Shown: positions 4,342-46,421 of the stretch, piece after piece | How positions within the stretch are numbered: position 1 is the stretch's first letter | Layout: every line of letters begins with the position of its first letter | Assembly: GCF_900170025.1 (NCBI RefSeq) | Contig: NZ_FWEX01000006.1 | Location: 100,668 to 164,667, forward strand | Direction: 5' to 3' | Length of the DNA stretch: 64,000 nt | Source: Nitrospira sp. ND1 | GTDB lineage: Bacteria > Nitrospirota > Nitrospiria > Nitrospirales > Nitrospiraceae | Position numbers and translations under genes: made by a program | Notes under the pieces: model-generated | Databases searched by the model: none | What the model was told of the DNA's origin: nothing | The model's input: only the letters and a program-made list of their open reading frames with translations

Positions 4342-4460
4342 GGTACGGTGTCATACACGCCGGTGTCGAACTAGGGGTTTCACTAGTGGGGCGACCTGGC
4401 TCAAGGTGCTACTACCCATGCGCATTGTGCATGTTGCGTCTTGGCCCCTAGAGTCCGTCC

Positions 4461-7400: not shown

Positions 7401-9266
7401 CAGGATCCCCCGGCCATCTTCATTCCCGATGTCGCCGCATCCGACCTCCACACGTCTTTGCGATCCGTTATTCAGAGCGAAGGTGTCTCCGCGCTGGGAT
7501 TTATCCCGCTGACGTATGGCGGCCGGTTACTCGGCAAGTTCATGATGTATTTCGACCGGCCCCACGTGATGGACGAGCAGGAGATAGGCTTGGCCCAGAC
7601 GATAGCCAGGACACTGGCCGTCGGGATCGAACGGGCTCGGGCCGGCGAGTTATTGCGGTCCAATGAGGAACGACTTCGTTTGGCCATGGCAGCCGGCTCG
7701 ATGGGTGCGTGGGACGCGGACCTCTCGACCGGAGCAACCGATTGGGACGCCAAACAATACGAGTTGTTCGATAGACCGAAAGACAAGCCCCTCACCCATG
7801 CGGAGCAGTTCTACGAATCCATCCACCCCGACGATGTGCCCCGCGTGAGGGAAGCGGCCGCGCAAGCCGAGCTGACGGGTTCATTCTCTCAAGAATTTCG
7901 AGTGATCGCGCAGGACGGCTCGATCCGCTGGCTCTCCGGGCACGGGACGGCGGTGAAGAACGACCAGGGACAGGCCGTCCGGATGGTCGGGATCAATTAC
8001 GACATTACGCGACGAAAGCACGTGGAGGAAGCCCTCCAGCGGTCCGCCTCCGACCTGGAGCAGCGGGTCGTGGAACGCACCCTCGAACTGTCTCAGTCCC
8101 GGGAACAGCTGCGGGCGCTCGCCACCGAATTGAATCTCGCCGGACAGCGGGAACGGCAACATCTGGCAACTGAACTGCACGATTATCTGGCGCAACTTCT
8201 GGCCCTGAGCCGAATCCGTCTGGCCCAGGCCAAACAGCAACCCATGACGACGGCCCTGGGAAAGATCCTGAGCGAGTTGCAGGACGTGATGGATCAGGCC
8301 CTGACCTATACCCGCACCCTTGTGGCCCAACTCAGCCCGCCGATTCTGAAAGAATTCGGATTGCCGATGGCCCTAAAGTGGTTGGCGGAACAAATGATGC
8401 AACGGGACCTGCAGGTATCCCTGGAGCTCGGAACAGATCATCTCGCCCTGCCTGAGGACCAGGCCATGTTGCTGTTCCAATCCGTACGCGAACTGCTCAT
8501 GAACATCGTGAAGCATGCCTCTGCCAAACAGGCCCGGATCACGGTCAGGGAAGAGGAGGGATGGCTGCATATCACCGTCGCAGACCAGGGCCGAGGCTTC
8601 TCCCCTCCCGATTCCATTCCTGCGACGAGATCCTCGGGCATCTCCGGCTTTGGACTTTTCAGCATACGGGAGCGTATGCTCGCGCTTGGCGGCCGTTTTG
8701 AATTGCAATCCCATCCCGGTCAAGGCACCGAAGCCACATTGACCGCACCGCTTGCACCGAGACAGCCTCGCGCGAAACCACAGGCAGGAGCCGACGCGAG
8801 CGTACCGGGCGCTCTGTCTCACAAGACGGCACACGCGGCGACTGTGCGGGAAGGCCTCGCCGACGAACGTGAACCTGTCGATCGCCCCATCCGCGTCTTG
8901 ATCGCCGACGACCATGCCATGGTGCGACAGGGCTTGTGCGGACTTCTGGCCGCCTATGGGAATATCCAGGTCGTGGGAGAGGCAGCCGATGGTGAAGAGG
9001 CCGTCACCCTGACGATACAGCTACAGCCCGACGTCGTCCTCATGGACGTCAACATGCCGCAAATGGACGGAATCGAAGCCACCAGGCGGATCAAGCAAGT
9101 CCTTCCGGCGACGATCGTCATCGGGCTCTCCGTCCAAAACGCTGCCCATGTGGGACGCGTGATGAGAGAAGCAGGGGCTGCGGCCTTTCTCAATAAAGAG
9201 GCCGCCGTGGAAGACTTGTACCAGACCATCCAGGTCGCCCGGAAGGAACTGCTGCAGGTCCCATGA
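4461..9266 (+). CDS. Giant hybrid histidine kinase with two kinase cores and two receivers
   Basis: The 1601-residue soluble sensor reads, in order: PAS-like N-terminus (1-180), GAF (190-345), HisKA with SHEFRTPL (H374), HATPase (475-590), receiver (D695), PAS (780-900), GAF (915-1065), PAS (1070-1200), HisKA_3 core with ELHDYLAQ (H1240), second HATPase (1330-1430) and a NarL-like receiver (D1529). It thus fuses an ordinary hybrid kinase to a NarX-type kinase. The last receiver has no LuxR-type DNA-binding domain after it. No transmembrane segment is seen, so the input is probably cytoplasmic. The stop overlaps the next start as ATGA, indicating translational coupling. The start lacks a clear ribosome site; a Met 17 codons in is an alternative. 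Confidence 0.9.
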   Translation: MTWHTESSFTPDAIDRQMNASETFSWLTGSEMGGRIRAFDWRRTPLGPIENWPAALVSTLGVCLTAQYPMAIYWGSEGWLLYNDAWRPILGDKHPWALGRAAHEVWPELWDTISPLLHSVQTTGQAVWRGDELLPMQRFGYTEECYFDYSFNPIRGQNGAVEGILNIVQETTYRVLNDRRMRLLRELASRSGFAHSQEDACNLAMEALATDQTDVPFALLYHIDRDRRHAHLIASTGLPPENPARQQTVSLTPEEPDSGWPLSAPLQEGVPVIVDDVGDRFGPLPGGSWSEPTGQALLLPLSTVRWDGRAVILVAGINPRRPLDDDYRSFFTMVESHIAGALTNAEAYSSEKRRAEALTELDRAKTAFFSNVSHEFRTPLTLMLGPLEEELRERPHAPRLEVAHRNSLRLLKLVNTLLEFSRLEAGRVEARYEPTDLAAYSTDLASQFRSAVEQAGLVFRIDCPPLPDPVYVDRDMWEKIVLNLLSNAFKFTFQGDITLSLHAQTGGVELRVQDTGVGIPPEALPRLFERFYRVQDMRSRTYEGSGIGLALVQELVQLHGGTVRVNSQVDQGSTFVVTLPFGNAHLPPDKVVPHGRPTTPTTGVGPYLEEALHWLPEPQHATKPADGRPDPAEAPLSTTSAETARPRVLVVDDNADMRQYIARLLADRYHVIAMPEGMSALIEARRQPPDLILSDIMMPQLDGFGLLQALRDDPALKTIPVILLSARAGEESRIEGLGRGADDYLVKPFGARELLARVATHLDMARVRREAQREIAHSEARFEAIVSQATAAVAQTDLNGRFLFVNQRFCELLGYSAAELLGMNMQQVTDPDDLPANLVLFHRLTAGGPDFVIEKRYRRKDGSAVWTRVSVGGVREDGELRHILAVGLDITDRKRQEAELLALTHRQSLLYDLADVVNRAEALTGLYEKAIDTIIEALHADRASILLFDDEGVMRFEAWRGLSQAYREAVEGHSPWIPDQQDPPAIFIPDVAASDLHTSLRSVIQSEGVSALGFIPLTYGGRLLGKFMMYFDRPHVMDEQEIGLAQTIARTLAVGIERARAGELLRSNEERLRLAMAAGSMGAWDADLSTGATDWDAKQYELFDRPKDKPLTHAEQFYESIHPDDVPRVREAAAQAELTGSFSQEFRVIAQDGSIRWLSGHGTAVKNDQGQAVRMVGINYDITRRKHVEEALQRSASDLEQRVVERTLELSQSREQLRALATELNLAGQRERQHLATELHDYLAQLLALSRIRLAQAKQQPMTTALGKILSELQDVMDQALTYTRTLVAQLSPPILKEFGLPMALKWLAEQMMQRDLQVSLELGTDHLALPEDQAMLLFQSVRELLMNIVKHASAKQARITVREEEGWLHITVADQGRGFSPPDSIPATRSSGISGFGLFSIRERMLALGGRFELQSHPGQGTEATLTAPLAPRQPRAKPQAGADASVPGALSHKTAHAATVREGLADEREPVDRPIRVLIADDHAMVRQGLCGLLAAYGNIQVVGEAADGEEAVTLTIQLQPDVVLMDVNMPQMDGIEATRRIKQVLPATIVIGLSVQNAAHVGRVMREAGAAAFLNKEAAVEDLYQTIQVARKELLQVP

Positions 9267-15903: not shown

Positions 15904-16287
15904 TCACCACATGACGATGGAGCGCCAGCGATGCCCCAAATCCGCGGTCGGGACGGACATTCGTACGATGCCTGCGTCGATGGTCACCCTGGCATGTTCG
16001 ATTTGGGCATCCGTCGGGATCGGCACGTATCGTTGATGCGACCCGCTGCTGAGAATGATGCCCTGCCGGGCGAACTCAACGGCAATCTCCTCGGCACTGG
16101 CCATCTCCGGCATCGCTCGAAAGTCTGCATAGACATTGAACGTGCCATCGGACTCGGACACCTCAATCAAGGGGCCTTGCTGAACAGCGCGAGAGGAACC
16201 GAGTGAACCGGCAGTTGTCTGTGCGGATGCTTGCCGGGAGTCATTCAATCGCATTCCATCGATCTCGCCACCCAATGTCTGCTTCAT
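15904..16287 (-). CDS. Hsp20/alpha-crystallin-like small protein
   Basis: This 127-residue protein has a disordered N-terminus and a beta-rich C-terminal half (LIEVSESDGTFNVYADF through VTIDAGIVRMSVPTAD) resembling the alpha-crystallin/CS fold of small heat-shock proteins. A holdase role is likely from the fold, but the match is weak and the terminal IxI motif is not evident. It converges on the preceding kinase operon with an 8-base gap. GGAG precedes the ATG. A CTAG-box sits 83 bases upstream, as for other stress genes here. Confidence 0.6.
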   Translation of the reverse strand: MKQTLGGEIDGMRLNDSRQASAQTTAGSLGSSRAVQQGPLIEVSESDGTFNVYADFRAMPEMASAEEIAVEFARQGIILSSGSHQRYVPIPTDAQIEHARVTIDAGIVRMSVPTADLGHRWRSIVMW

Positions 16288-16387: not shown

Positions 16388-16431
16388 GTCCAGACCTGGA
16401 AGACGCTAGCGGTTTGCCTAGTTGTTCACCC

Positions 16432-16487: not shown

Positions 16488-18482
16488 ATGAGGCACACTG
16501 AGATGCATTCGACAGACGGAGACAACCCCACTGCTTCCGAGATTCCGCTTCAGATTGATCTCCTCCTGTCGCGTCTGGCTGCGATCGTGGAGTCGTCCGA
16601 TGACGCCATCATCTCCAAAGACCTCAATGGCTGCATCATGAGTTGGAATCAGGGGGCGCAACGCCTCTTCGGATACACAGCACAGGAAATGATCGGACAG
16701 CCGGTGCATCGCCTGATCCCCCAAGACCGACTCGATGAAGAACCCAGAATTCTGGAACGCCTCCGCCTGGGGCAACGGATCGACCATTACGAAACGGTGC
16801 GGCAGCGCAAAGATGGAACGATGATCGACGTTTCGCTTTCGGTGTCGCCGATCAAGGATCGGGGAGGCCGAATTGTCGGCGCCTCAAAAGTCGCCCGGGA
16901 GATTTCGGAACGAAAACAGGGTGAGCGTGACCTGGCAAATCTGGTCGAAGCCCTTCCGGTCGCGGTCTACACGACCGATGCCGAGGGACGAATCACGCGC
17001 TACAATCAGGCGGCTGTGGATCTCTGGGGATCCAGACCCGTGCTCGGCACCACCAGATGGTGCGGCTCATGGCGGGTCTACTGGCCAGACGGTCGCCCCA
17101 TGCCGCTTGCAGCCTGTCCGCTCGCCCAGTGCCTCAGGCTCAATCGCCCGATACGCGGACTTGAAACGATCATTGAACGCCCGGACGGAACCCGGGTCCC
17201 GGTCGCACCCCACCCCACCCCCCTTCGCAACGCGGCCGGAGAATTGGTCGGCGGGGTGGACGTGCTCATGGACCTCACGGAACGGAAACGCGCGGAACGC
17301 CAACTGCAGGAGTCCGCGGCTGAGCTCGAACGTCGCATCAAGGAACGCACGCATGAACTCGTCCTGTCTCAGGAACGGCTGCGGGCACTGGCCTCGGAAC
17401 TGACGTTGACTGAACAACGCGAGCGCCGACGGCTCGCCGTTGAATTGCACGACTATCTTGCGCAGCTCGTCGTGGCCAGCCGGCTCAGGCTTTCGCAAGC
17501 CATCTCCAAGGTTCAGGATGAAACCGCATCCGCCGCGCTGACGAACGTGGACGGGATGCTGGATCAGGCCTTGACCTACACCCGATCGCTCGTGGCCGAA
17601 TTGAGCCCTCACATCCTCTACCAATTCGGCCTCTCCAAATCGCTGGTCTGGCTGGGAGAGCGGATGAAGCAACACGCGCTTGAAGTCACGGTCAAAACGG
17701 GTCCGACGTCGTTTACCCTGCCCGACGACCAGGCCGTTCTCTTGTTTCAATCGGTCCGCGAATTGCTGTTTAACATCGTCAAACATGCCAAGACAGATCG
17801 CGCTGTCATCACGATCAACGTCGATGAGCAACGGGAGCTGTGGATCTGCGTCGAGGATGAAGGCGTCGGATTCGACGTGACGGAACTGACCGACGGCGAG
17901 GACAGCCGGGGAAAATTCGGCCTGCTCAGCATCCGGGAACGGATGGAAACGCTGGGAGGAGAATGCGAACTCTCCGCCGCGCCCGGCGCCGGCACCGTCG
18001 CGATCCTCCGCCTGCCGCTCTCCGGGAGCGCCACCGCCTCGCCTTCCACGCCACCCACCACGGTTCCTTCGCATACGCCGGCCGCCGCGTCCAAAGACCC
18101 TGCCCGACGGATCAGAATCGTGCTTGTCGACGACCACGCCATGGTCCGGCAAGGACTGCGCAGCATACTGGATGGCTATGCGAACCTGATCGTTGTCGGC
18201 GAGGGAGCCGACGGCCAGGACGCCGTCGTGATGGTCCGTTCGCTTCGCCCGGATGTCGTGATTATGGACGTGAACCTGCCGCTCATCGACGGCATCGAAG
18301 CCACCCGCATCGTGTCGCGCGAATATCCCTCTATCGCCGTCATCGGCATCTCGGTGAGGAACGACCCCCAGGTGCATGTCGCCATGACTGAAGCCGGAGC
18401 GGTGGCATTCCTCCCGAAAGAATCCGCAGCCAGCCAACTCTACGAAATTATCCTCCGCCATTGCCCTGCGATCGCTATATGA
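16488..18482 (+). CDS. PAS-PAS-HisKA_3 histidine kinase with C-terminal receiver
   Basis: The 664 residues comprise two PAS domains (about 30-145 and 150-265), a NarX-type core with ELHDYLAQ (H321), HATPase (410-510) and a NarL-like receiver (540-660, D594) without a helix-turn-helix. It is soluble by inspection. The kinase core and terminal receiver are strikingly similar to those at 4461, 13814 and 18700, pointing to local duplication. Two Met codons (16488 and 16503) are possible starts; the second has GAGG nine bases upstream. A divergent Hsp20-like gene shares the upstream region. Confidence 0.88.
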   Translation: MRHTEMHSTDGDNPTASEIPLQIDLLLSRLAAIVESSDDAIISKDLNGCIMSWNQGAQRLFGYTAQEMIGQPVHRLIPQDRLDEEPRILERLRLGQRIDHYETVRQRKDGTMIDVSLSVSPIKDRGGRIVGASKVAREISERKQGERDLANLVEALPVAVYTTDAEGRITRYNQAAVDLWGSRPVLGTTRWCGSWRVYWPDGRPMPLAACPLAQCLRLNRPIRGLETIIERPDGTRVPVAPHPTPLRNAAGELVGGVDVLMDLTERKRAERQLQESAAELERRIKERTHELVLSQERLRALASELTLTEQRERRRLAVELHDYLAQLVVASRLRLSQAISKVQDETASAALTNVDGMLDQALTYTRSLVAELSPHILYQFGLSKSLVWLGERMKQHALEVTVKTGPTSFTLPDDQAVLLFQSVRELLFNIVKHAKTDRAVITINVDEQRELWICVEDEGVGFDVTELTDGEDSRGKFGLLSIRERMETLGGECELSAAPGAGTVAILRLPLSGSATASPSTPPTTVPSHTPAAASKDPARRIRIVLVDDHAMVRQGLRSILDGYANLIVVGEGADGQDAVVMVRSLRPDVVIMDVNLPLIDGIEATRIVSREYPSIAVIGISVRNDPQVHVAMTEAGAVAFLPKESAASQLYEIILRHCPAIAI

Positions 18483-18505: not shown

Positions 18506-18522
18506 ACTAGGGTATCCCCCAG
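18506..18522 (+). promoter_or_regulatory. CTAG-box between two kinase genes
   Basis: The sequence is ACTAGG-GTATC-CCCCAG. Both flanking genes are on the plus strand, so this copy has the opposite orientation to most others. It lies 24 bases after one stop and 178 bases before the next start. Confidence 0.4.
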
Positions 18523-18699: not shown

Positions 18700-21600
18700 A
18701 TGACCTCGATGCTCCTCACATTGCAGCGTGTGGTCCTATCGGCCGCCGGACTGGCTATCGCGTTCCCAGCCCTCACATTGCTCTGCTGGGCCTACGACCA
18801 TTCGATCCTGTACCATCTGCATACGTCTTTCCGCACACTGAAACCCACGACCATGTTGGCGGTCCTCTTCTGCGGCCTATCCCTCTGGTTGCAAGCTGAA
18901 GAGGGCGCCGTCACGACCGCACGGCGGTATGTTGCACAGGGCTCCGCGATCGTCGCCTGCCTGCTTGCCAGCCTGATCCTGTCGGAACACCTCCTTGCTC
19001 TCGACCTGGGAATCGACCTCTGGCGCATTGCCCTCCCGGAAATCTCCAGCGATGCACATCCTGGGCGCACGGCTCCTGCCACAGCCGTCGCCATTCTGAT
19101 GCTGGGACTGACACTGTTGTGGCTTGATACCAAACCGTTCGCGACATACTTCTTCGATCAGTCTGCCGCACTCATAGGAGGAACGATCGGCTGCATCGGG
19201 CTGGTCGGGTATTTGTACGGGGTTCAGAGCCTTTACAAAGTGGGGACCTTCTCATCCACCTCCGTCTATAGCGCCCTCCTGTTGGTGACATTGGGCCTGG
19301 GAATTCTCTGCGCGCGACCGGCGAGGGGCCTGATGGCCACCCTCACCAGCGAGAAGCTCGGGGGGGTGATGTTGCGACGTCTCCTGCCCTTCGCCGTCAT
19401 GCTGCCGATACTCGCCGGATGGATTCGCATTGCAGCCCAGCGGTCGGGGAAGTACGACTTCAATTTCGGCGTGGCACTGGCTGTGGCCGCTGTGATGCTG
19501 ATCATGCTGGCGTTCCTCTGGCTTCTGGCAGGAAGCCTGAACCACACCGACGGCCAGAAGAAACACATCATGCAAATTCTCCAACAGCGTGAAGCCCGGC
19601 ATCGCCTGGCGTTGAGAGCCGGCCGCATGGGCACATTTCACCAGGACCTCGACGACGAGTCGCTGGTGTTCTCCCCTGAACTTGAGGCCATTTTCGGCCT
19701 CCCTCCCATGAGCTTCGCCAGCACCTTCGCGGCCTTTCAACAACTGATTCATCCCGATGATCGACAACGGGTGCAGCAGACCGTTGCCGAGGCGGTTGAA
19801 AACAGGACCGCCTACGACCTTGAGTGCCGGATCCTTCGCACGAGCCCTCCCGGTGAGAGTTGGATTGCGGTGACCGGGCAGGTGCTCCCCGACTCGACCG
19901 GGCATCCGCGACAAATCACCGGCGTCATGTTCGACATTACCGAACGGAAACGATCGGAAACCGCGCTTCGACAGAGCGAAGAACAACTGCGGGTCGTCAC
20001 CGATGCGTTGCCCGGCCTCATCGCCTATGTGGACCGCGATGAACGATACCGTTTTGTGAACGCCGGATATGAACGGCATTTTGGACGGTCTCGTGAGCAG
20101 ATCGTCGGAAGCTCTGTCAAAGAACTCCTGCAACAGGATTATCCGCAAGTACAACGTTTCATCGAGCGGGTACTGGAGGGCGAGCAGATCTCATTCGAAA
20201 CTACCAGTCTTGGTGAGACCGACGAACAGACGCTCCTGGCGACCTATGTCCCGGAACGGACAGCCGGGGGAACAGTCGAAGGCTTCTATGTCCTCATCAC
20301 CAACATCACAGACCGGAAACGGACAGAGCAGGCCCTGAGGGAAAGCGAAGAACGGTTTCGACATCTTTTTGAGCAGGCTTCCGACGGTATCGTCATGGCG
20401 GATATGTCGGGCCATTACCTGGATGTGAATAGTCGGGCTTGTCACATGCTGGGATATTCTCGCGAAGAACTGCTCGGCATGGGCGTGACCGACCTGCTCG
20501 ATCCGCATGACTACAAACGCCTGCGGGAGATCAAGGCCGAGTTGCTGGAAGGACACCGTCATTCCGGTGAATGGAAGTTGCGCAGGAGGGACGGAGCGAC
20601 ACTGTCCGTGGAGATCAGTGCCAAACTCCAGCCCGACAGACGCTGGCATGCCATCGTCCGCGACATCACCGAACGCAAACGGGCCGAGGCCGGGCTGCGG
20701 GAGAGCGAAGCCCATTTCCGCATGTTGGCGGATGCCACTCCGGTGCTCGTTTGGATGGCGGGCACCGACACCCGCTGCACCTGGCTGAATCGATCGTGGC
20801 TTGAGTACACAGGCCGTCCCCTGGAAGACGAGCTCGGCAGCGGATGGACATCCGGCATTCATCCGGACGATCAGGCCGAGTACCTGCGAGTCTACAAAGC
20901 GCACTTCTCGCGGCACGAGCCGTTTGAAATGGAATACCGCCTCCGCCGTCAAGACGGGACCTATGGGTGGATTCTCGACCGGGGGGTGCCGCTCCTGACG
21001 CAGAACGGAGAATTCAGCGGGTACCTCGGCTCAGCCATCGACATCACCGACCGAAAGCATGCCGAAGAGCAGTTGCAGCAATGGACGGGCGAGTTGGAGA
21101 AGCGGGTGGATGAACGAACACAAGCGTTGGTGCGTTCACAGGAACGTCTTCGTGCCCTCGCCTCCGACCTCAGTGCGACCGAACAACAAGAACGCCGGCG
21201 GCTGGCGACGGAACTTCACGATTATCTGGCGCAATTGCTCGTGGTCGGGCGCATGAAACTGGGCCAGGCGAAACCGCACGTGCAAGATTCCAAGACCCTG
21301 CAACTCCTGAGCGAGGCGGATGACGTCCTCACGCAATCACTCAACTATACTCGTTTTCTCGTGGCGGAACTGAGCCCCCAGGTGCTCTATCAATTCGGCT
21401 TACCTGCGGCGCTCAAATGGCTAGGCGGCCAAATGAAAACCCATGGGCTGACCGTCATCGTCCATTGTGACCGCGATCATCTCCCCATGGACGAGGAAAG
21501 CGCGGTCATTCTCTACCAAAGTGTTCGGGAATTGCTGTTCAATGTCGTCAAGCATGCACGGACTACGGAGGCCGCCATTTCCCTCTCGTGCCGCACCCAT

Positions 21601-22245
21601 GACATCGTCACCATCACCGTCTCCGACCAGGGATGCGGATTCAATCTGTCGACAATGACGGAAACCGATCGGGCTCTCCCCGGCCGGTTCGGCCTGTTCA
21701 ATGTGCAAGAGCGCGTTGAGGCGATCGGCGGGCGTCTTAATTTGGATTCCACGGAAGGCAAGGGCACGACCGTCACGCTGACAGCCCCGATTGACGGCAA
21801 CTCCCAATCCGAGCCGGGGTCAGCGTCCTCCCGCGCGAAACAACGTGTCGCCGCGCCCGTTCCTCCTTCCGAACGGCTTCGCATCCTCCTCGTCGATGAC
21901 CACGAAATGGTTCGACAAGGCCTACGGAGCGTGCTGGACAACTACGAGGACCTGGAGGTTATCGGCGAAGCGGGTGACGGCGAGTCGGCGATCAGTATCG
22001 CCGCGGCGCTCAAGCCGGATGTCGTGGTGATGGATGTGAATATGCCGAGGATCGACGGGATTGAAGCGACCCGCCGCATCGTCTCAGCGCAACCCGACAT
22101 CGTCGTGATCGGATTGTCGGTTCAGAACGAACACCATGTAGAAGAGGCCATGACCAGAGCCGGGGCGGCGGTCTTTGTGACAAAAGAACGCGCCGCCGGC
22201 CAGCTCTATGAAGCAATCGTGCGCACAGTTCGCACGAGAAAGTAG
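18700..22245 (+). CDS. Membrane-anchored multi-PAS histidine kinase with C-terminal receiver
   Basis: This 1181-residue protein begins with about seven or eight hydrophobic segments (residues 5-280) forming a membrane sensor region. Four PAS/PAC units follow between about 300 and 800, each ending in an ITERKR/ITDRKH-type signature. Then come a NarX-type core with ELHDYLAQ (H840), HATPase (930-1030) and a NarL-like receiver (1060-1181, D1112) with no DNA-binding domain. It is the fourth kinase of this subtype in the island and the only one of the four with a membrane domain. Its end is convergent with the small DUF1328 gene. Confidence 0.9.
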   Translation: MTSMLLTLQRVVLSAAGLAIAFPALTLLCWAYDHSILYHLHTSFRTLKPTTMLAVLFCGLSLWLQAEEGAVTTARRYVAQGSAIVACLLASLILSEHLLALDLGIDLWRIALPEISSDAHPGRTAPATAVAILMLGLTLLWLDTKPFATYFFDQSAALIGGTIGCIGLVGYLYGVQSLYKVGTFSSTSVYSALLLVTLGLGILCARPARGLMATLTSEKLGGVMLRRLLPFAVMLPILAGWIRIAAQRSGKYDFNFGVALAVAAVMLIMLAFLWLLAGSLNHTDGQKKHIMQILQQREARHRLALRAGRMGTFHQDLDDESLVFSPELEAIFGLPPMSFASTFAAFQQLIHPDDRQRVQQTVAEAVENRTAYDLECRILRTSPPGESWIAVTGQVLPDSTGHPRQITGVMFDITERKRSETALRQSEEQLRVVTDALPGLIAYVDRDERYRFVNAGYERHFGRSREQIVGSSVKELLQQDYPQVQRFIERVLEGEQISFETTSLGETDEQTLLATYVPERTAGGTVEGFYVLITNITDRKRTEQALRESEERFRHLFEQASDGIVMADMSGHYLDVNSRACHMLGYSREELLGMGVTDLLDPHDYKRLREIKAELLEGHRHSGEWKLRRRDGATLSVEISAKLQPDRRWHAIVRDITERKRAEAGLRESEAHFRMLADATPVLVWMAGTDTRCTWLNRSWLEYTGRPLEDELGSGWTSGIHPDDQAEYLRVYKAHFSRHEPFEMEYRLRRQDGTYGWILDRGVPLLTQNGEFSGYLGSAIDITDRKHAEEQLQQWTGELEKRVDERTQALVRSQERLRALASDLSATEQQERRRLATELHDYLAQLLVVGRMKLGQAKPHVQDSKTLQLLSEADDVLTQSLNYTRFLVAELSPQVLYQFGLPAALKWLGGQMKTHGLTVIVHCDRDHLPMDEESAVILYQSVRELLFNVVKHARTTEAAISLSCRTHDIVTITVSDQGCGFNLSTMTETDRALPGRFGLFNVQERVEAIGGRLNLDSTEGKGTTVTLTAPIDGNSQSEPGSASSRAKQRVAAPVPPSERLRILLVDDHEMVRQGLRSVLDNYEDLEVIGEAGDGESAISIAAALKPDVVVMDVNMPRIDGIEATRRIVSAQPDIVVIGLSVQNEHHVEEAMTRAGAAVFVTKERAAGQLYEAIVRTVRTRK

Positions 22246-25389: not shown

Positions 25390-25629
25390 TCAACGCTGGG
25401 GTTGAGCCTGGCGTCCTTCGGTGCGCGGCTTGCCCTGTTGCGCGTACCAGTCGTCGGCCCATTTCACCACTTCTTCCTTCTTGTCGCCGTAGCGTTCCTG
25501 GACCCGCCCGACAAATTTGTCGTAATCGCCTTCGACCTGCATCAGGTCGTCGTCAGTGAGCGTGCCCCACTGTTTTTTCACTTCGCCTTTGAACTGCACC
25601 CACTTTCCTTTGAATTGATCGGTATTCAT
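25390..25629 (-). CDS. CsbD-family stress protein
   Basis: A 79-residue cytoplasmic CsbD protein (FKGKWVQFKGEVKKQWG, ERYGDKKEEV). AAGGAGG precedes the ATG, which overlaps the stop of the upstream small gene as ATGA, so translation is probably coupled. The domain is clearly paralogous to that of the exported CsbD at 24618. Confidence 0.85.
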   Translation of the reverse strand: MNTDQFKGKWVQFKGEVKKQWGTLTDDDLMQVEGDYDKFVGRVQERYGDKKEEVVKWADDWYAQQGKPRTEGRQAQPQR

Positions 25630-25913: not shown

Positions 25914-25930
25914 CTGGACATACCCCTAGT
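25914..25930 (-). promoter_or_regulatory. Degenerate CTAG-box copy
   Basis: Forward sequence CTGGAC-ATACC-CCTAGT, almost identical to the copy at 3296. It lies 54 bases before the minus-strand start at 25859, but its orientation relative to that gene is opposite to the strong sites. Confidence 0.3.
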
Positions 25931-28881: not shown

Positions 28882-29073
28882 TTATGGGGCCGCAAGATCT
28901 ACACGCAGATGGGGCAAAGCGGACTCTAACCCCAGCCCGGCGGCCGGCTCGACGCCCGGACCACGGTCGGTGGCCGGTTGAAGCAGGCCCTTCGACTGGG
29001 TACCGACCACCAATGCGCAAGCGGCCAGCGAGAGAAACAGACCGACTTGTTTTCCGGTTGTATCAAACGGCAT
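28882..29073 (-). CDS. Small single-span exported or membrane protein
   Basis: A 63-residue frame with a hydrophobic N-terminal segment (VGLFLSLAACALVVGTQ) followed by a Pro/Gly-rich tail. GAGGAG lies upstream of the ATG, and a perfect-core CTAG-box lies 71 bases upstream, which supports a real gene. No family is recognised. Confidence 0.55.
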   Translation of the reverse strand: MPFDTTGKQVGLFLSLAACALVVGTQSKGLLQPATDRGPGVEPAAGLGLESALPHLRVDLAAP

Positions 29074-29144: not shown

Positions 29145-29161
29145 ACTAGGAGGAACCCTGG
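29145..29161 (+). promoter_or_regulatory. CTAG-box (strong copy)
   Basis: The sequence is ACTAGG-AGGAA-CCCTGG, a consensus copy. It lies 71 bases upstream of the minus-strand start at 29073, downstream of the CBS gene. Confidence 0.6.
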
Positions 29162-31041: not shown

Positions 31042-31058
31042 ACTAGGTGATGCCCTGG
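31042..31058 (+). promoter_or_regulatory. CTAG-box facing the SOD gene (strong copy)
   Basis: The sequence is ACTAGG-TGATG-CCCTGG, a consensus copy 84 bases upstream of the SOD start. Its inverted partner starts 12 bases away. Confidence 0.65.
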
Positions 31059-31070
31059 CGTGGACCGATG

Positions 31071-31087
31071 CCGGGGAGTTTCCTAGG
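31071..31087 (-). promoter_or_regulatory. CTAG-box facing the LuxR-type regulator
   Basis: The minus-strand reading is CCTAGG-AAACT-CCCCGG. It is inverted relative to the copy at 31042 and lies 182 bases before the GTG at 31270. Confidence 0.55.
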
Positions 31088-31269
31088 AGCGCGACCAGAG
31101 GTCTCGTGGTATGAGAGAATGAATATCGGGGGAGCCGTGGGGGGTCGTTAAGACTTATCCGGCAGCTATAGGTGTAAAGACGAAGAGAGCCTGCTATTCT
31201 GAGACCGTTCAGGAGTGTATGTTCCTGAATCGCCTATCGGAACGCAGCAGGTACGGAGGTAGGAATCCT

Positions 31270-31926
31270 GTGTCAAAAGCACGTCTCGTCATCGCCGATG
31301 ACCACAGCATCGTGTTGGAGGCCTATCGCCAACTTCTCGAGCCGGAATTCGAAGTCGTCGGCACGGCCGAAAACGGTCAAGAGCTTCTGAACATCGCGCC
31401 GGGGCTGGCTCCCGATATCATCATGCTCGATATCTCCATGCCGACCATGAACGGCCTGGATGTCACGAAACAGCTGCGTGCCGCAGTACCCCGGGCGAAA
31501 CTGATTTTTGTCACGATGATGAGCGAACCGTTTTACATTTCGCAGGCATTCGAACTGGGCGCCTCCGGCTATGTGCTCAAACAGTCGGCTTCCACCGAGC
31601 TCCTGTCGGCGCTGAATGCCGCCCTCAAGAATCAGCGCTATATCTCCCCGCAGCTCTCCCTGGAGGTGCAGGATGCCATTGAAACGCCGTGGGTGAAGCC
31701 GGAAGGATTCTCCTCCAAACTGACGCCGCGCCAACAGGAGGTGTTGCAACTTCTCACGAAGGGGTTTTCCACGAAGGAGATTGCGGCCACGATGCAGGTG
31801 TCGACCAAGGCGGTGGAATTCCACAAGGGCAATATCACGAGGCGCCTGGGCATCCGCACCACCGCGGAATTGACGAGGTTCGCCCTGTCACAGGGCCTCA
31901 CCAAGCTGGACGACCAACATCCCTGA
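31270..31926 (+). CDS. NarL/LuxR-family response regulator
   Basis: A 218-residue regulator with a receiver (D54 in IIMLDISMP) and a C-terminal LuxR/GerE helix-turn-helix (LTPRQQEVLQLLTKGFSTKE, then VSTKAVEFHKGNI). The GTG at 31270 is chosen because GGAGGT lies nine bases upstream and the receiver begins at once. Such regulators are normally phosphorylated by HisKA_3 kinases, four of which lie in this window. It is tail to tail with a paralogue (4-base gap). The paired CTAG-boxes upstream suggest possible autoregulation. Confidence 0.93.
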   Translation: MSKARLVIADDHSIVLEAYRQLLEPEFEVVGTAENGQELLNIAPGLAPDIIMLDISMPTMNGLDVTKQLRAAVPRAKLIFVTMMSEPFYISQAFELGASGYVLKQSASTELLSALNAALKNQRYISPQLSLEVQDAIETPWVKPEGFSSKLTPRQQEVLQLLTKGFSTKEIAATMQVSTKAVEFHKGNITRRLGIRTTAELTRFALSQGLTKLDDQHP

Positions 31927-31930
31927 ACCC

Positions 31931-32614
31931 TCAGACGTGAGGCCCGGGGACAGTCGGCTGCTGCGGCATCGCGATCAAGCCGATCGTGATGGCATGTTTG
32001 GTGAGTTCGGCAGTGCTGTGGACGCCGAGTTGTTTCATGATGCGGGTCTTGTGAAACTCGACGGTCTTGATCGACACGTTCAGAGTCGATGCAATCTCCT
32101 TGGTGGATTGGCCTTCCGCGATCAATTGAAGCACTTCCCTCTGGCGCGCACTCAACTTGTCGTTCGACGTTGCGGAACGTGCCGGGCCCGGTTCAGCAGG
32201 ATTCAGCGCCTGCTCGACCAGATTTTCCGCCACACTCGGGGAGACGTACAGTCGCCCCTTCAGCACTTCCTTGATCGCAAACACCAACTCTTCCGCGACA
32301 GACTGCTTCAGCACATAACCGGACACGCCGGCGCGAAACGCCTCCGTGACAAAATACTGCTCGCCATGCATGGTGAGCACCAGCAGCTTGACTTCCGGGG
32401 TGGATTTCTTGATCTGGCGGCAGGCATCGAGCCCATTGAGCAGGGGAAGCGCGATGTCTACCAGCGCAATGTCCGGCTTCTCTTTCTCGACGGCTCGCAC
32501 GAGGGCCCGGCCGTCCGCAACCCGGCCGCATAACTGGAAGTCATGCTCCAGGAGTTTTTCGACACCTTCAGCAACGAGCGTATGATCGTCGGCGATGAGA
32601 ACTCTTGGTTTCAT
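31931..32614 (-). CDS. NarL/LuxR-family response regulator
   Basis: A 227-residue regulator: receiver (D53 in IALVDIALPLLNG) and LuxR-type helix-turn-helix (LSARQREVLQLIAEGQSTKE, VSIKTVEFHKTRI). It is a paralogue of the convergent regulator at 31270. No kinase is adjacent, so the partner is unknown; the HisKA_3 kinases at 4461-22245 are natural candidates by family pairing. Confidence 0.93.
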   Translation of the reverse strand: MKPRVLIADDHTLVAEGVEKLLEHDFQLCGRVADGRALVRAVEKEKPDIALVDIALPLLNGLDACRQIKKSTPEVKLLVLTMHGEQYFVTEAFRAGVSGYVLKQSVAEELVFAIKEVLKGRLYVSPSVAENLVEQALNPAEPGPARSATSNDKLSARQREVLQLIAEGQSTKEIASTLNVSIKTVEFHKTRIMKQLGVHSTAELTKHAITIGLIAMPQQPTVPGPHV

Positions 32615-32705: not shown

Positions 32706-34064
32706 TTAGAGCTCTTTCGACCAGAAAAAAATGATTCCATGGCCGCCCTTGGTCGGCGGCGCTCCTCCTGGATCGCGATAAATGCCGAAATTATACGTGT
32801 AATTCAGCTCGACTTGCGATTTCCAAGGGGCACCGGTGACCAGCCCGCCCCCAAGGGCCGGCATGGAATCCGTAATATTTTTGACCGCGCCGTTGCTCGT
32901 GAAGACCGGACGCTCGACCAGCCCCCATGTGGCTTCAAGGTATGGATACAGGAAGAACAAGGCTTCATATCGATACTGCAGATTGGCGACGGCATAACGT
33001 GTCGGGAACAGCTCGTTGAAGGCGACACCGTGGATCATGGGGAGCGAGATGGCTTCCCATTCATATCCCGTCGGCCTTCCCGGCAACCGAAAAGCTGAAA
33101 ACCGATCCAAATCCTTGCCGATACCTCCATGTACACTGGTCACGAGCCGGTGCTTCTCGCTCTCAATGAACGGAAGCCCGGTGGCCACCAATGCATAGGC
33201 GCTGGCTTGAAGGTACGTCTGCTCTTTCGTGAAATCGGGCGTGTCGAACGGCGCCCCACCCCATCGATCCCACTTCGCCCGGTGGCCGTGAATCAGATCT
33301 CCCCCCATGGTGAACCCTTCGTGGGGCAGTTCCATCAAGTTTCGCTTTAACGCATCGGCGCGGATTCGAAAATGGATACGTCCCTCATACGTGTCTTTGG
33401 GCACACCATACTGGGCAGAGGTATGGCCGGTTCCTTTGAACCACCGATAGCCCGCTTCATACGTAAGGGACATGTTGACGGCGCTGTCCTGTCGAAACGG
33501 ATGCACGGGCAATCGATACCCTAACCCTGCCCCGGCAAAAGCATAACTCCATTCCAATTCCGTTCCCCGTTGGCGCTGACCCTGGACATATTCCGAACGT
33601 CCCATGGGAAGAATGAAATTGTCCCAGGTGAAGATCAGCGACCAGTTGGGATACTCCCGCAGGCCGATCGTGTAATCCACGTCATTGACCACTCCGGAGA
33701 ACGTGCCGCGGAGCCGTCGGTTGTCGTCGTCCCAATTACGCCACACATAGAGGGCGCCGAACGGCAGCATCTCCATTTGACTCGGCCCGTTCGGAATCGC
33801 CTGAACCCCGAAACTTGCCGCCGTGACACTCCTCCGATCGCGGGGCGGCACATAGATCTCTTCCCCGAACAGAGTCGTCCGAAACTCTTCCCCGGCAATG
33901 GGAGTCGGGTCCTCTCCCTGCGCAATATTCCCTCCAAGGCCACAGAGAACGAGGCCCAAGCCACATGCGAGCACTCGGGCCACCTTACGGACTCCTCTTC
34001 GATGCATAACGGCCATATCGCGTCTCTCTGCTCTTTCACAACACCGCCTCAGCCAATCACTCAT
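32706..34064 (-). CDS. Predicted outer-membrane barrel protein
   Basis: This 452-residue protein has a long basic N-region and a hydrophobic signal core (VARVLACGLGLVLCGLGG), then a succession of Tyr/Trp-rich amphipathic strands, consistent with a large beta-barrel. AAGGAG precedes the ATG. The family is not recognised. A CTAG-box lies 36 bases upstream of the start. The internal Met residues at positions 17 and 20 would give a more ordinary signal peptide and are possible alternative starts. Confidence 0.65.
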   Translation of the reverse strand: MSDWLRRCCERAERRDMAVMHRRGVRKVARVLACGLGLVLCGLGGNIAQGEDPTPIAGEEFRTTLFGEEIYVPPRDRRSVTAASFGVQAIPNGPSQMEMLPFGALYVWRNWDDDNRRLRGTFSGVVNDVDYTIGLREYPNWSLIFTWDNFILPMGRSEYVQGQRQRGTELEWSYAFAGAGLGYRLPVHPFRQDSAVNMSLTYEAGYRWFKGTGHTSAQYGVPKDTYEGRIHFRIRADALKRNLMELPHEGFTMGGDLIHGHRAKWDRWGGAPFDTPDFTKEQTYLQASAYALVATGLPFIESEKHRLVTSVHGGIGKDLDRFSAFRLPGRPTGYEWEAISLPMIHGVAFNELFPTRYAVANLQYRYEALFFLYPYLEATWGLVERPVFTSNGAVKNITDSMPALGGGLVTGAPWKSQVELNYTYNFGIYRDPGGAPPTKGGHGIIFFWSKEL

Positions 34065-34100: not shown

Positions 34101-34117
34101 CCTAGTAAAATCCCTGG
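34101..34117 (+). promoter_or_regulatory. CTAG-box upstream of the 32706 outer-membrane gene
   Basis: The sequence is CCTAGT-AAAAT-CCCTGG, 36 bases upstream of the minus-strand start at 34064. Confidence 0.5.
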
Positions 34118-34249: not shown

Positions 34250-34301
34250 TAGATCTCCAGTATCGCAATCTGCTGAGGTTCGATAGGCTCGGCGTGTGGC
34301 A

Positions 34302-35150
34302 ATGCGGCTTTGGCAACCTCAGCAAGATCAGTCGACTTCCTCATCGTTCGGCCGAAGGCTTGCTCTGTTAACACTGGCCCGCGCCGGAATGTGCCTCATT
34401 GCCACGAACGAGCTCCTTGCCGCACCGATTGAAGTCATCTACCCCGAGGGTGTCAGCGAGGGATTCGTCACGCTGAAAAGCATGGATGGCAAGAAGCTCG
34501 CCGATGGGGAATTGAGCCAGTTGACGACAGGGGCCGATCGGTTGGCCAGTCGTCTCACGTTTCGCTTCACCGACGGATCCCTCTATGACGAAACGGTCAC
34601 CTTTTCGCAAAAGAAGCATCTGGCCATGTTGAGCTATCAATTGAACCAGCGAGGACCGGCGTTCCCTGAACCCCTGACGATTTCGCTCAACGGAGAGACG
34701 GGGCAGTACCAGGTGCGCCGGCACGAGCAGGCGAAAACCGAACAGACGATTTCCGGTCGCATAGATCTGCCGGCGGATATCTATAACGGCATGACCATTA
34801 CAGCGTTAAAGAACCTGCGCGGCAGAAGCGGTGCCTCCATCCACATGGTGGTCTTCAACCCGGAGCCGAAAATTTATGAACTCGATTTGAAGCTGGTCGA
34901 GCATGAAGAAACGCGGAACACCAACCGGAAGGAAGTGAAGGCCACGGCCGCGCATTACCTCTTAACACCGAAGCTGGGATGGTTTATGAGCGCGCTTGCC
35001 TCCTTAGTCAGAAGAACGCTTCCTGAATATCATTTTTGGCTGATTAAGAAGGACGCGCCGGCGTTTGTCCGCTTTGAAGGTAGTTTGTACCCCGACGGTC
35101 CGACCTGGATCATCGAGCAGATATCACCCAGGGTCAAGGATGGGCACTAG
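34302..35150 (+). CDS. Exported protein of unknown function
   Basis: The 282 residues have an N-terminal hydrophobic segment (LALLTLARAGMCLIATNELLAA) likely to act as a signal peptide, followed by a beta-rich body with many charged residues and no recognised motif. A GTG two codons upstream is an equally possible start; neither has a convincing ribosome site. It shares a divergent upstream region with the outer-membrane gene and is followed closely by a basic protein gene. Confidence 0.65.
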   Translation: MRLWQPQQDQSTSSSFGRRLALLTLARAGMCLIATNELLAAPIEVIYPEGVSEGFVTLKSMDGKKLADGELSQLTTGADRLASRLTFRFTDGSLYDETVTFSQKKHLAMLSYQLNQRGPAFPEPLTISLNGETGQYQVRRHEQAKTEQTISGRIDLPADIYNGMTITALKNLRGRSGASIHMVVFNPEPKIYELDLKLVEHEETRNTNRKEVKATAAHYLLTPKLGWFMSALASLVRRTLPEYHFWLIKKDAPAFVRFEGSLYPDGPTWIIEQISPRVKDGH

Positions 35151-39002: not shown

Positions 39003-39362
39003 TCACCAGTAGGGCTTGTAGCCATAATAGGTGTGGAGGCGCTCACCCCAGGCGGTATCCGCCATATCCGGCCAACGATCCTTATCAAACCCTTCGGCCT
39101 GTTCCAGCCGTTCCCTGGACACGTTCAAAATGAAGAAATCTCCCCCCGCGGACATCGTCAGGGCCTCCCAGGGAAGTGCGAACAGTTTGTCGCCCAACCC
39201 AAGAAAGCCGCCGAACGAGAGCACCGCATAAGCAATGCGTCCCTTTTCGAGATCGATCATCAGTTCATTGATCTCTCCCAGATCTTCTCCCGCCTGATTC
39301 TGTACGGGTGTGCCCTCTATCGTAGAAGCCGCCAGCAATCGTCGCCCTGTATGTAACGCCAT
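39003..39362 (-). CDS. PRC-barrel domain protein
   Basis: A 119-residue cytoplasmic protein (start MALHTGRRLL, AAGGAGGG upstream) with one PRC barrel (GTPVQNQAGEDLGEINELMI...AYAVLSFGG, then KLFALPWEAL). Unlike the paralogue at 38239 it has no signal peptide. A CTAG-box lies 91 bases upstream. It belongs to the general stress-protein set of this region. Confidence 0.85.
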   Translation of the reverse strand: MALHTGRRLLAASTIEGTPVQNQAGEDLGEINELMIDLEKGRIAYAVLSFGGFLGLGDKLFALPWEALTMSAGGDFFILNVSRERLEQAEGFDKDRWPDMADTAWGERLHTYYGYKPYW

Positions 39363-39453
39363 GAGAAACCCTCCTTGTGTTGATATGCGATGCTCTGAGG
39401 CAGACACGTTGACCTCGTACTCTTAGTCATAACGCCCGAGGTCGAGAGGAACA

Positions 39454-39470
39454 GCTAGGAAGGCCCCTAG
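39454..39470 (+). promoter_or_regulatory. CTAG-box upstream of the PRC-barrel gene
   Basis: The sequence is GCTAGG-AAGGC-CCCTAG, a nearly palindromic copy 91 bases upstream of the minus-strand start at 39362 and 23 bases after the end of treY. Confidence 0.55.
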
Positions 39471-43715: not shown

Positions 43716-45173
43716 CTACAGCGCGCGCATAAACGCCACCAGCGCAGACTTTTCGTCGCGATTGAGTTGGAGGCCTGCCACGAGGTTAAAAAATTCAACC
43801 GTATCCTCCAACGTCAACAATCGCCCATCGTGGAGATAGGGCGGCGAATCCTTGATTCCCCGTAACGCGAACGATTTGATCGGACCATCGGCCTCGGCAC
43901 CGAATCGTTCCAGAAACAGATCGTGGAGCATGTGATCGGTATAGGACGGCGGCTGATGGCAGGTGACACAGTGCGCCTTCCCGAAGAACAGGTCCTCGCC
44001 TGCGATCTCTCGCTGACTCGCCCGTGCACGATCCAACCGCCCGGTCATGGGATCCAGTTTCGGCGCCGGAGGAAAATCGATCATGTTCTGGATTTGCGCC
44101 ATATGTGCCACCTGCAGACGATCGATGACGTTCATTCCTTTCTTCATCGCGCGGATCGGATCGCCGTTAAAATAGGCTGTCCGTTGTTCGAATTCGGTGA
44201 AGTCCTCGATCGATCTCAAGCTTCGCTTTGAACCGTGAACCTGTTGATTGAACATCCCCCTGAGACTGACCGTATCCAGCCGTAACCGGTCGCGTTGAGG
44301 GCGGGTGTCCGGATTGAGATGAAATTGACCGGTGGTGTGAAAATTGACATGGCAATCCAGGCAGGCCACGCCCAGACTCGGCTTGGGAGATTTCCGATCC
44401 GGTGTCAGGTTGAATTCTTCCTGCGGGAACTGGGTCACCAACATTCTCAAACCATCCAACTGAACGGGCGTGATGAGTCCGCGAAAAAGGCGATCAAAAT
44501 TATCCGCGCTCAGCACCTCTCCCTGCGAGACGTCGCCCAATTCTGGATGGGTGGTCAGGAAAATGGGCGGGGGAAATTCAGGAAGAAAACAATCCGGGAG
44601 GTCGAAGTCTACATCGAAACGCTCAAGCCGTGGAAATTGCTCCACCTGCTTTTGAGGAAACACCTGGCCGCCGACCTCATGTTTGACGTGCGGTAAACGC
44701 ATGAATCCGGATGGGAATAATTTCTGCCGGCGAATATCCTCCGGGCTTATGTGCGAGAGCTTGTCCCAGGTCATGCCTTCCTTGAGCTGTACCGTAGGTC
44801 CGATTGGCTGCGGCTTCCCCTTTGTCATGATGGCCCCTGTTTGCGTCTTACATTCGAACGTATAGCGCGACTGCAATAACGCAGCGTGATTGGCCATCAC
44901 CCTGGGTTTATCGCCCATGTCTTTCCTCATCACTTCTTCCGCTATGTGAGCCGTCGATTGACCGGATGGCGCCCCGAACAGATCGTAAGAAAAGTCCACA
45001 CCGTCGAACCCCTTTTCCTTTGCTTTTTCGATCGCGGATTGTGGCTGGTTCCGCTTCTCCTCGCCATGCCCTTGAGCCCCGACAAATACCAGCCCGGACA
45101 CGATGGCGATGCCGAAAACAGACGCTCCCAGAAGCCCCGCTGTGGCAATTCGCCTTCTTCGTGACGTACGCAT
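43716..45173 (-). CDS. Exported di-haem cytochrome c (peroxidase/MauG-like)
   Basis: A 485-residue exported protein: a basic N-region and hydrophobic signal (RRRRIATAGLLGASVFGIAI), then two haem-binding motifs, CLDCH at C271 and CVTCH at C402. The C-terminal part (FFGKAHCVTCHQPPSY, then LRGIKDSPPYLHDGRLLTLE) resembles bacterial cytochrome c peroxidase/MauG proteins. Periplasmic electron transfer or peroxide removal is likely; which one is not determined. The ATG at 45173 has GAGG upstream, in preference to an ATG four codons before. A strong CTAG-box lies 80 bases upstream. Confidence 0.82.
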   Translation of the reverse strand: MRTSRRRRIATAGLLGASVFGIAIVSGLVFVGAQGHGEEKRNQPQSAIEKAKEKGFDGVDFSYDLFGAPSGQSTAHIAEEVMRKDMGDKPRVMANHAALLQSRYTFECKTQTGAIMTKGKPQPIGPTVQLKEGMTWDKLSHISPEDIRRQKLFPSGFMRLPHVKHEVGGQVFPQKQVEQFPRLERFDVDFDLPDCFLPEFPPPIFLTTHPELGDVSQGEVLSADNFDRLFRGLITPVQLDGLRMLVTQFPQEEFNLTPDRKSPKPSLGVACLDCHVNFHTTGQFHLNPDTRPQRDRLRLDTVSLRGMFNQQVHGSKRSLRSIEDFTEFEQRTAYFNGDPIRAMKKGMNVIDRLQVAHMAQIQNMIDFPPAPKLDPMTGRLDRARASQREIAGEDLFFGKAHCVTCHQPPSYTDHMLHDLFLERFGAEADGPIKSFALRGIKDSPPYLHDGRLLTLEDTVEFFNLVAGLQLNRDEKSALVAFMRAL

Positions 45174-45252
45174 GTGAGACCTCATGTGGTTGAGAGAAGC
45201 GTTCGCGGATGGTTCGTGAGTGTGAATTTACCGGCGTATGGCCTATTGCACT

Positions 45253-45269
45253 ACTAGGTAGTTCCCTGG
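45253..45269 (+). promoter_or_regulatory. CTAG-box facing the di-haem cytochrome gene (strong copy)
   Basis: The sequence is ACTAGG-TAGTT-CCCTGG, 80 bases upstream of the minus-strand start at 45173. It forms an inverted pair with the copy at 45295. Confidence 0.65.
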
Positions 45270-45294
45270 CGATGAAGACCAGTATTGTCAATAA

Positions 45295-45311
45295 CCAGGG
45301 TTGCCCCTAGT
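45295..45311 (-). promoter_or_regulatory. CTAG-box facing the zinc-ribbon gene (strong copy)
   Basis: The minus-strand reading is ACTAGG-GGCAA-CCCTGG, identical to its partner outside the spacer. It ends 67 bases before the plus-strand start at 45379. Confidence 0.65.
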
Positions 45312-45378
45312 GATGTCTCTGAGCGCTATTCCTTACGATCACAAGTGTCATTGATGCCACCGAACGGGAGGACGCACC

Positions 45379-45600
45379 ATGCACTGTCATCGTTGCAATA
45401 ATTTGATGTTCCCGATTGCCTTACAGGACTGGGGCGGCGGATTAATGAGGAAAGACTCGCCCGCCTGGCGATGCTTCGCCTGCGGGGAGATCATGGATCA
45501 GCAAATCCGGAACAACCGGAACAAGGACCATGAGAGCGAGGAGGCGCGTCACAACAGAGGAGCGCGACATCGTATCAACGCCATAGCGGTACAGCGATAG
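45379..45600 (+). CDS. Small zinc-ribbon protein
   Basis: A 73-residue protein with two CxxC pairs, CHRC at the N-terminus and CFAC in the middle, forming a likely zinc ribbon, followed by a basic tail rich in Arg and Asn. GGGAGG precedes the ATG. It is divergent from the di-haem cytochrome gene and shares its paired CTAG-boxes. Role unknown; regulatory or nucleic-acid binding is plausible for such ribbons. Confidence 0.72.
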   Translation: MHCHRCNNLMFPIALQDWGGGLMRKDSPAWRCFACGEIMDQQIRNNRNKDHESEEARHNRGARHRINAIAVQR

Positions 45601-45622
45601 CCCGGCCGACTAGGACGGCGTG

Positions 45623-46167
45623 TCAGTCGTCCTGGTCGGATTCCTCATCGGACACCGATGCCACGAATGTACCGCCTGCGTTTACGATCAGACAGGCTGT
45701 TTCCCAGATGTCACGTACAATGAAATGGGGCCAGCGCATGGCGGTCATATCCCAGTCAGTCTCACTCCCGTTCAAACAGAGTATGGTGTTGCACCCCAAC
45801 AAGCAGCCGACTTCAATGTTGTCCAGCCGGTCGCCGACGAGCCATGAGCAGGCCAGATCAATGTGCAATGCCGCCGTCGCATCAAGGAGGGGCATGATCT
45901 GTTTGCTGAGCGGGGTCGGCCTGGTGCTATAGCGGACAGCATCGCATGTGCTGCTTCCCTCATGGCTTCGGCGCAGACGGCAAGGGCGTCCGATGTGAAT
46001 AGGACGATCGTGAATCCCGCCAGGGTCAAGAGGCGATAAGCTCTCCGTTCCGCTTCGCCGGCCGTAGCTGAAGCGGGCCGAGAATACATTCCCTGACGCC
46101 CGACCATTTCCCTCGCTACTACGAACACTGCCTTCTCCCGCATCCCGGCCGACATGTGGTTTCTCAC
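45623..46167 (-). pseudogene. Frameshifted HAD-family phosphatase remnant
   Basis: Two overlapping frames together give a HAD hydrolase of the histidinol-phosphatase/GmhB type. The N-terminal part from a GTG at 46167 (REKAVFVVAREMVG, AGFTIVLFTSDA, AAHAML) is in one frame. The C-terminal part (LSKQIMPLLDATAALHIDLA, SWLVGDRLDNIEVG) is in another; the shift falls near 45925-45945. Motif I, normally LDRDG, reads VAREM, so the nucleophilic Asp is gone. The GTG overlaps the upstream gene stop (GTGA). It is probably decayed; a sequencing error could explain the shift but not the lost motif. Confidence 0.6.
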
Positions 46168-46421
46168 GTCTTTGCTGAACTCCTCGACTTCCGGCGAGAC
46201 CTTGTGGACCTCGAATTCGAAGCGCGTTGAGGAACTTTGATTCCGGACTTCCGCGCCTTCGAGAGCCCAATGGCCACAGCCTGCTTACGAGACTTCACCG
46301 GATGTTTGCCGGTTTTCATGTGCTCAATCTCTTCTTTCACGAAAGCACCGGCTTGCGTCGTCGCAGCCTTTCCCTCTCGTTTCGTCTTGCGCGTCTCTTC
46401 GAAAGTCTTTTTTTTCGGCAT
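46164..46421 (-). CDS. DUF6496-like basic stress-associated protein
   Basis: An 85-residue basic protein with the conserved core GKHPVKSRKQAVAIGLSKAR, found in short proteins common in bacterial stress-gene clusters, and a Ser/Arg-rich tail. GAGGAG precedes the ATG. It overlaps the HAD remnant downstream and lies 15 bases from the membrane gene upstream. Function unknown; nucleic-acid binding is suggested by charge only. Confidence 0.72.
   Translation of the reverse strand: MPKKKTFEETRKTKREGKAATTQAGAFVKEEIEHMKTGKHPVKSRKQAVAIGLSKARKSGIKVPQRASNSRSTRSRRKSRSSAKT

Follow-up and report, generated by a model that had tools for sequence, protein, structure and literature searches.

Inverted CTAGG boxes between divergent genes as candidate activator-type promoters of a putative stress regulon in Nitrospira

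Described systems closest to the CTAGG box

At class-II-type activator promoters of the LuxR/Crp kind, the activator site overlaps the -35 position, there is no -35 element, and a -10 hexamer lies downstream. General stress regulons (sigma-B, EcfG/PhyR) have target genes of the CsbD, YtxH, superoxide dismutase (SOD), hemerythrin, and PRC-barrel types. Nitrospira are key nitrite oxidizers and comammox bacteria and are hard to grow. Among the operators of NarL/FixJ-type response regulators, the GacA/UvrY box has the sequence TGTAAG-N6-CTTACA (PMC3171408). The ACTU motif of CrbR in Pseudomonas is an imperfect inverted repeat that a LuxR-family response regulator requires for activation (PMC5715377).

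The window analyzed here, a stretch of 64,000 nucleotides from Nitrospira sp. ND1, contains boxes that resemble each of these systems in part. Like the GacA/UvrY box, which is bound by a regulator with REC and GerE domains, the CTAGG box is an 18-bp inverted repeat of the form 6-N6-6. In contrast with that box, its half-site is ACTAGG rather than TGTAAG, and its distance to the -10 hexamer is constant at 23 bases. Two NarL/FixJ-type regulators encoded in the window, P0001 and P0002, scored 105.5 and 140.8 bits against the UvrY/SirA/GacA family cut-off of 280, far below it; neither the half-sites nor the family membership expected of a GacA/UvrY regulon was found. As for the ACTU motif, the site recurs at the same genes in different species, but ACTU half-sites resemble ACC...GGT and belong to an acetate-utilization regulon with no stress island (PMC5715377). 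The class-II layout is also shared, here with a predicted center near -43.5, the motif CTAGG, and a phosphorylated response regulator as the presumed activator. The target types match those of the sigma-B and EcfG/PhyR regulons, while control here appears to act through a NarL-type operator and not an alternative sigma factor. No description of a CTAGG box in Nitrospira, or of a Nitrospira general stress regulon, was found in the open-license literature. A response regulator-controlled promoter is a known kind of element; the motif and the regulon appear to be new.

The box pair, its promoters, and related boxes

The region between the divergent genes for a di-heme cytochrome and a small zinc-ribbon protein contains two inverted boxes, CTAGGTAGTTCCCTGG (45254-45269, +) and CTAGGGGCAACCCTGG (45295-45310, -) (Table 1). 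Counting the flanking A and T (45253 and 45311), the 12 nonspacer bases ACTAGG...CCCTGG are the same in both, exactly as claimed in an earlier, sequence-only reading of this DNA. That reading also held a chance origin of the pair to be very unlikely, and the counts bear this out: CTAGGN5CCCTGG occurred exactly at 4 sites in the window, whereas 100 dinucleotide shuffles had 0.02 on average and at most 1. Read toward the genes, both boxes are CCAGGG-N5-CCTAG(T), with a -10-like TAnnnT 23 bases on. The gene-ward box in general is the near-palindrome CYAGG-N6-CCTAG, in most cases with a T after it. The strict CCTAG half is proximal to the gene, and the whole box is an inverted repeat within the length range of about 16 to 20 bp that characterizes operators of NarL/FixJ-type promoters.

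Table 1. Boxes, promoter elements, and genes in the window
Feature	Position	Strand	Basis
Di-heme c-type cytochrome, 489 aa (CLDCH at 275, CVTCH at 406)	43716..45185	-	two CXXCH motifs
Small zinc-ribbon protein, 73 aa (CHRC, CFAC)	45379..45600	+	sequence
Box A, for the cytochrome gene; gene strand CCAGGGAACTACCTAG	45254..45269	-	exact match; kept in relatives
-10-like hexamer TAAATT, 23 nt after box A	45225..45230	-	phasing
Box B, for the zinc-ribbon gene; gene strand CCAGGGTTGCCCCTAG	45295..45310	+	exact match; kept in relatives
-10-like hexamer TACGAT, 23 nt after box B	45334..45339	+	phasing
Canonical box facing SOD (CCAGGGCATCACCTAG-N23-TAGGGT)	31043..31058	-	motif, phasing
Weaker box facing P0001 (CCGGGGAGTTTCCTAG-N23-TATGAG)	31071..31086	+	motif
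P0001, NarL/FixJ-type response regulator (REC + GerE), first candidate for box-binding activator	31219..31926	+	domains, co-occurrence
P0002, second NarL/FixJ-type response regulator, convergent with P0001, recognition-helix signature shared	31931..32614	-	sequence
Box before multidomain histidine kinase 4461-9266	4371..4386	+	motif
Box before hybrid histidine kinase 16488-18482 (HisKA_3 + REC)	16406..16421	+	motif, phasing
Box before histidine kinase 18700-22245 (HisKA_3 + REC)	18507..18522	+	motif
Box (2 mismatches) upstream of CsbD gene 25390-25629, TATAAC at N23	25914..25929	-	motif, phasing
Box before small ORF 28882-29073	29146..29161	-	motif
Box before 32706-34064, -10-like TATAAG at N23	34102..34117	-	motif, phasing
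Box before PRC-barrel gene 39003-39407, -10-like TATGAC at N23	39455..39470	-	motif

Neither flanking protein was assigned to a known family. The cytochrome, which may start at Met5 (45173), had no Pfam match at 0.001, and its C-terminal part alone has remote similarity to MauG/di-heme peroxidases; no named family was found for the zinc-ribbon protein. Overlapping ORFs in two frames at 45623-46270 (-) resemble, by eye, a frameshifted gene for a HAD-type phosphatase.

The distance between box and -10 hexamer was scanned in both directions for all 44 intergenic box readings, and orientation was assigned without gene calls. TAnnnT was present at offsets 22 to 24 in 17 readings, compared with 0.85 expected (binomial P about 3e-17), and was rare at other offsets. 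The phased boxes are spread through a region of ~180 kb. No TTGACA/TATAAT promoter (-35/-10 pair) was found in 45150-45700, and the operator stands at a fixed 22 to 24 nt from TAnnnT without a -35 element. A box that replaces the -35 element and keeps a fixed phase to the -10 hexamer is the layout expected of an activator-dependent promoter. The activator would be centered near -43.5 if transcription started ~7 bases past the -10 hexamer, a start position predicted from these motifs.

The region between SOD and P0001 (31043-31099) had been read as a repeat of this arrangement. This held for the SOD side, where the box is canonical, but not fully for the regulator side, where a weaker box, with 1 mismatch and TATGAG at N23, was found in some relatives only. 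Tandem overlapping half-sites ~11 to 12 bases apart were observed in this region and at C6:93898-93925 and C6:100476-100515, both outside the window, which is C6:100668-164667 in this numbering. These tandem sites suggest that more than one dimer may bind side by side.

Boxes of this kind are concentrated around the window. Exact CTAGGN5CCCTGG occurs at 10 sites in the whole 4.45-Mb genome, 7 of them inside C6:95-254 kb. We scanned C6:1-400000 and background stretches using genes called by a simple coding-score script, for which gene starts are approximate. All 28 CTAG-containing matches to CTAGGN6CCTRG (0 to 1 mismatches; perfect palindromes counted on both strands) in C6:1-400000 were intergenic, although intergenic DNA makes up 15.6% of that sequence, and 27 of the 28 fell inside C6:60-260 kb. 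Exact CYAGGN6CCTAG was present at 11 places in these 200 kb and at 1 in 420 kb of unselected sequence. A sequence profile built from 16 promoters had 21 matches in the genome, 17 of them in C6:75-254 kb; since the profile was trained on sites of that region, it indicates only that strong sites elsewhere are few. A BLAST search against plasmids gave no match.

Genes that carry a box encode SOD, PRC-barrel, CsbD, YtxH, hemerythrin, Rieske/FAD oxidoreductase, HAD/ATPase, MFS transporter, and PLD/VTT proteins, as well as three large HisKA_3-domain histidine kinases. Box-adjoining genes at 28882-29073, 32706-34064, 34296-35150, and 15904-16287 had no Pfam or NCBIfam match and are candidates for new stress proteins. 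The picture that emerges from these sequences is of a general stress regulon, apparently undescribed. LigD-like, Ku-like, and trehalose/glycogen genes were recognized by eye in the island (C6:82-92 kb), and a perfect box lies at C6:92166, before a Rieske/FAD oxidoreductase gene.

Candidate regulators of the boxes

The P0001 gene adjoins SOD; the closest relatives of its product with solved structures are VraR and NarL, and the closest loci are in Nitrospira, including N. defluvii NOB1. A REC-GerE regulator is thus linked to the operator, and it also co-occurs with it. Within the genus, 20 genomes with P0001 had 21 to 43 box matches (counted on both strands), compared with 6 to 18 in 9 genomes without it (Mann-Whitney P=1e-5). 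Across the family (73 genomes), box number correlated with P0001 at a Spearman rho of 0.87, and at 0.69 outside the genus; the Mann-Whitney and rho values ignore shared ancestry. The contrast recurred inside genus g2 (21, 23, and 25 boxes with P0001 versus 0, 1, and 1 without) and partly in g6 (35 and 12 versus 1, 6, and 8), and 3 genomes without a P0001 orthologue still had 16 to 18 box matches. Because regulator and targets lie in one island, co-occurrence could also mirror the island being gained or lost as one unit. In 7 genomes with a P0001-like protein at 49 to 56% identity, a box lay 5′ of that gene, P0002-like genes (60 to 69%) lay alongside, and the recognition-helix core VEFHK was kept in the P0001-like proteins.

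P0001 and P0002 are the best candidates for the regulator of the boxes. The two co-occur, so that co-occurrence does not separate them, and both share K[AT]VEFHK in the recognition helix with paralogues, so that sequence fits either one as the binder. The convergent pair was also observed to be conserved in several genera of the family. A core NarL-type paralogue at C6:3012914-3013576, also present in genus members without the island, has a box before its next gene and a kinase-like gene upstream; it, or other NarL-type paralogues beside a box, could likewise bind. The box itself is asymmetric, with a loose CYAGG far half and a strict CCTAGT near half, and might be read by a P0001/P0002 heterodimer, a possibility that we regard as doubtful.

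Crp/Fnr-type sites are 16-bp 5-N6-5 palindromes that act near -41.5. Crp/Fnr regulators have been predicted in Nitrospira (PMC8510549), and the operator length is equal and the position class-II-like, so another transcription factor family such as this one might bind the box. We consider Crp/Fnr control unlikely, as the box is centered near -43.5 rather than -41.5, box count tracks the NarL-type pair across genera, and HTH_Crp_2 matches are few (three in the genome) and all outside the island, which contains 2 of the 26 GerE domains. Further, no island-linked Crp/Fnr regulator was found, and the half-site is CCTAG, not of the TGTGA or TTGAT type.

Conservation of both promoters and the proposed regulation

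Phylogenetic footprinting, which the sequence-only reading had proposed as a check, revealed genus-wide retention of the boxes at both promoters. Of the two genes, the cytochrome was detected in 16 genomes of the genus and the zinc ribbon in about 20. Nearly all divergent pairs keep both boxes with unchanged polarity, usually with the -10 hexamer at 23 bases; TAnnnT was present at 23 to 24 nt in 14 of 16 cytochrome promoters, and each of the 17 anchored zinc-ribbon promoters had it at 23 nt. Column information was high over the half-sites (mostly 1.5 to 2 bits), clearly raised at the -10 hexamer, and low between and outside these elements. The zinc-ribbon box of G027 and G005 is CCAGGG-N5-CCCAG. 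G006, one of the 3 genomes that had 16 to 18 box matches although no P0001 orthologue was found, retains both boxes; its contig stops before the expected regulator site, leaving that absence unsure.

The inverted placement between divergent genes, together with palindromic sites at some other promoters, could instead reflect repressor operators or a single shared operator coupling both genes. There is little chance that this is so. The distance between the boxes is 41, 47 to 49, 58 to 59, or 130 bases across the genus, and helical phase is not kept. In G001 and G004, where the two genes are apart, each has one facing box, and in G012 the separation is wider, and neither gene has lost its own box. 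These results indicate that boxes A and B are separable units, and with such variable spacing the shared-operator reading was rejected. A repressor operator fits poorly with a box that occupies the -35 place and keeps the phase to the -10 hexamer expected of an activator; no further -35 element was found. The claim of one box per promoter, facing cytochrome and zinc ribbon, is supported by the hexamer on the gene side of each box. Conserved box/-10 phasing and the own box kept by each separated gene argue for two promoters rather than one shared operator, and the pair is predicted to form two independent divergent activator-type promoters without a recognizable -35 element.

Conserved two-part elements before many stress genes are also typical of ECF or sigma-B-like regulons, but promoters of an alternative sigma factor are a very improbable source of these elements: a 16-bp near-palindrome that ends 23 bases before a -10-like hexamer differs from -35/-10 elements spaced by 16 to 18, tandem half-sites occur at some places, and a sigma-54-type element was not found downstream. 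Sigma-54/NtrC control was rejected, with TGGC-N7-TGC absent downstream in 14 of 14 box promoters checked. A functionless chance repeat, for which nothing speaks beyond the shortness of the sites, can be dismissed given the shuffles, the intergenic restriction, the phasing, the footprinting, and the genus-wide conservation that was found.

The boxes are thus most probably activator-type promoters bound by a NarL/FixJ-type response regulator, P0001 and/or P0002, that drive the stress island, a reading in which we have fairly good confidence. Each box would be a 16- to 18-bp operator (CYAGG-N6-CCTAG) centered near -43.5, standing in for the -35 element ahead of the -10 hexamer. A phosphorylated dimer, most likely of P0001 and/or P0002, would bind each box and recruit RNA polymerase, and the cytochrome and zinc-ribbon genes would be switched on with some 20 other promoters of the island. 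The box-bearing HisKA_3 kinases and the box before P0001 suggest that positive feedback may be added. We infer the identity of the regulator, its binding, activation, the signal, and the transcription starts from the arrangement of these elements.

Little is known about gene regulation in Nitrospira, as far as the literature was searched. If the heterodimer reading were true, the Nitrospira general stress response would operate via a paired-response-regulator switch, not an alternative sigma factor, and the box-controlled kinases would close a feedback loop. With a code CYAGG-N6-CCTAG-N23-TAnnnT tied to one regulator pair, sequence alone would be enough to delimit a stress regulon across the genus. 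Such a code would name the members of the regulon, including the uncharacterized cytochrome and zinc ribbon, and would provide testable targets.
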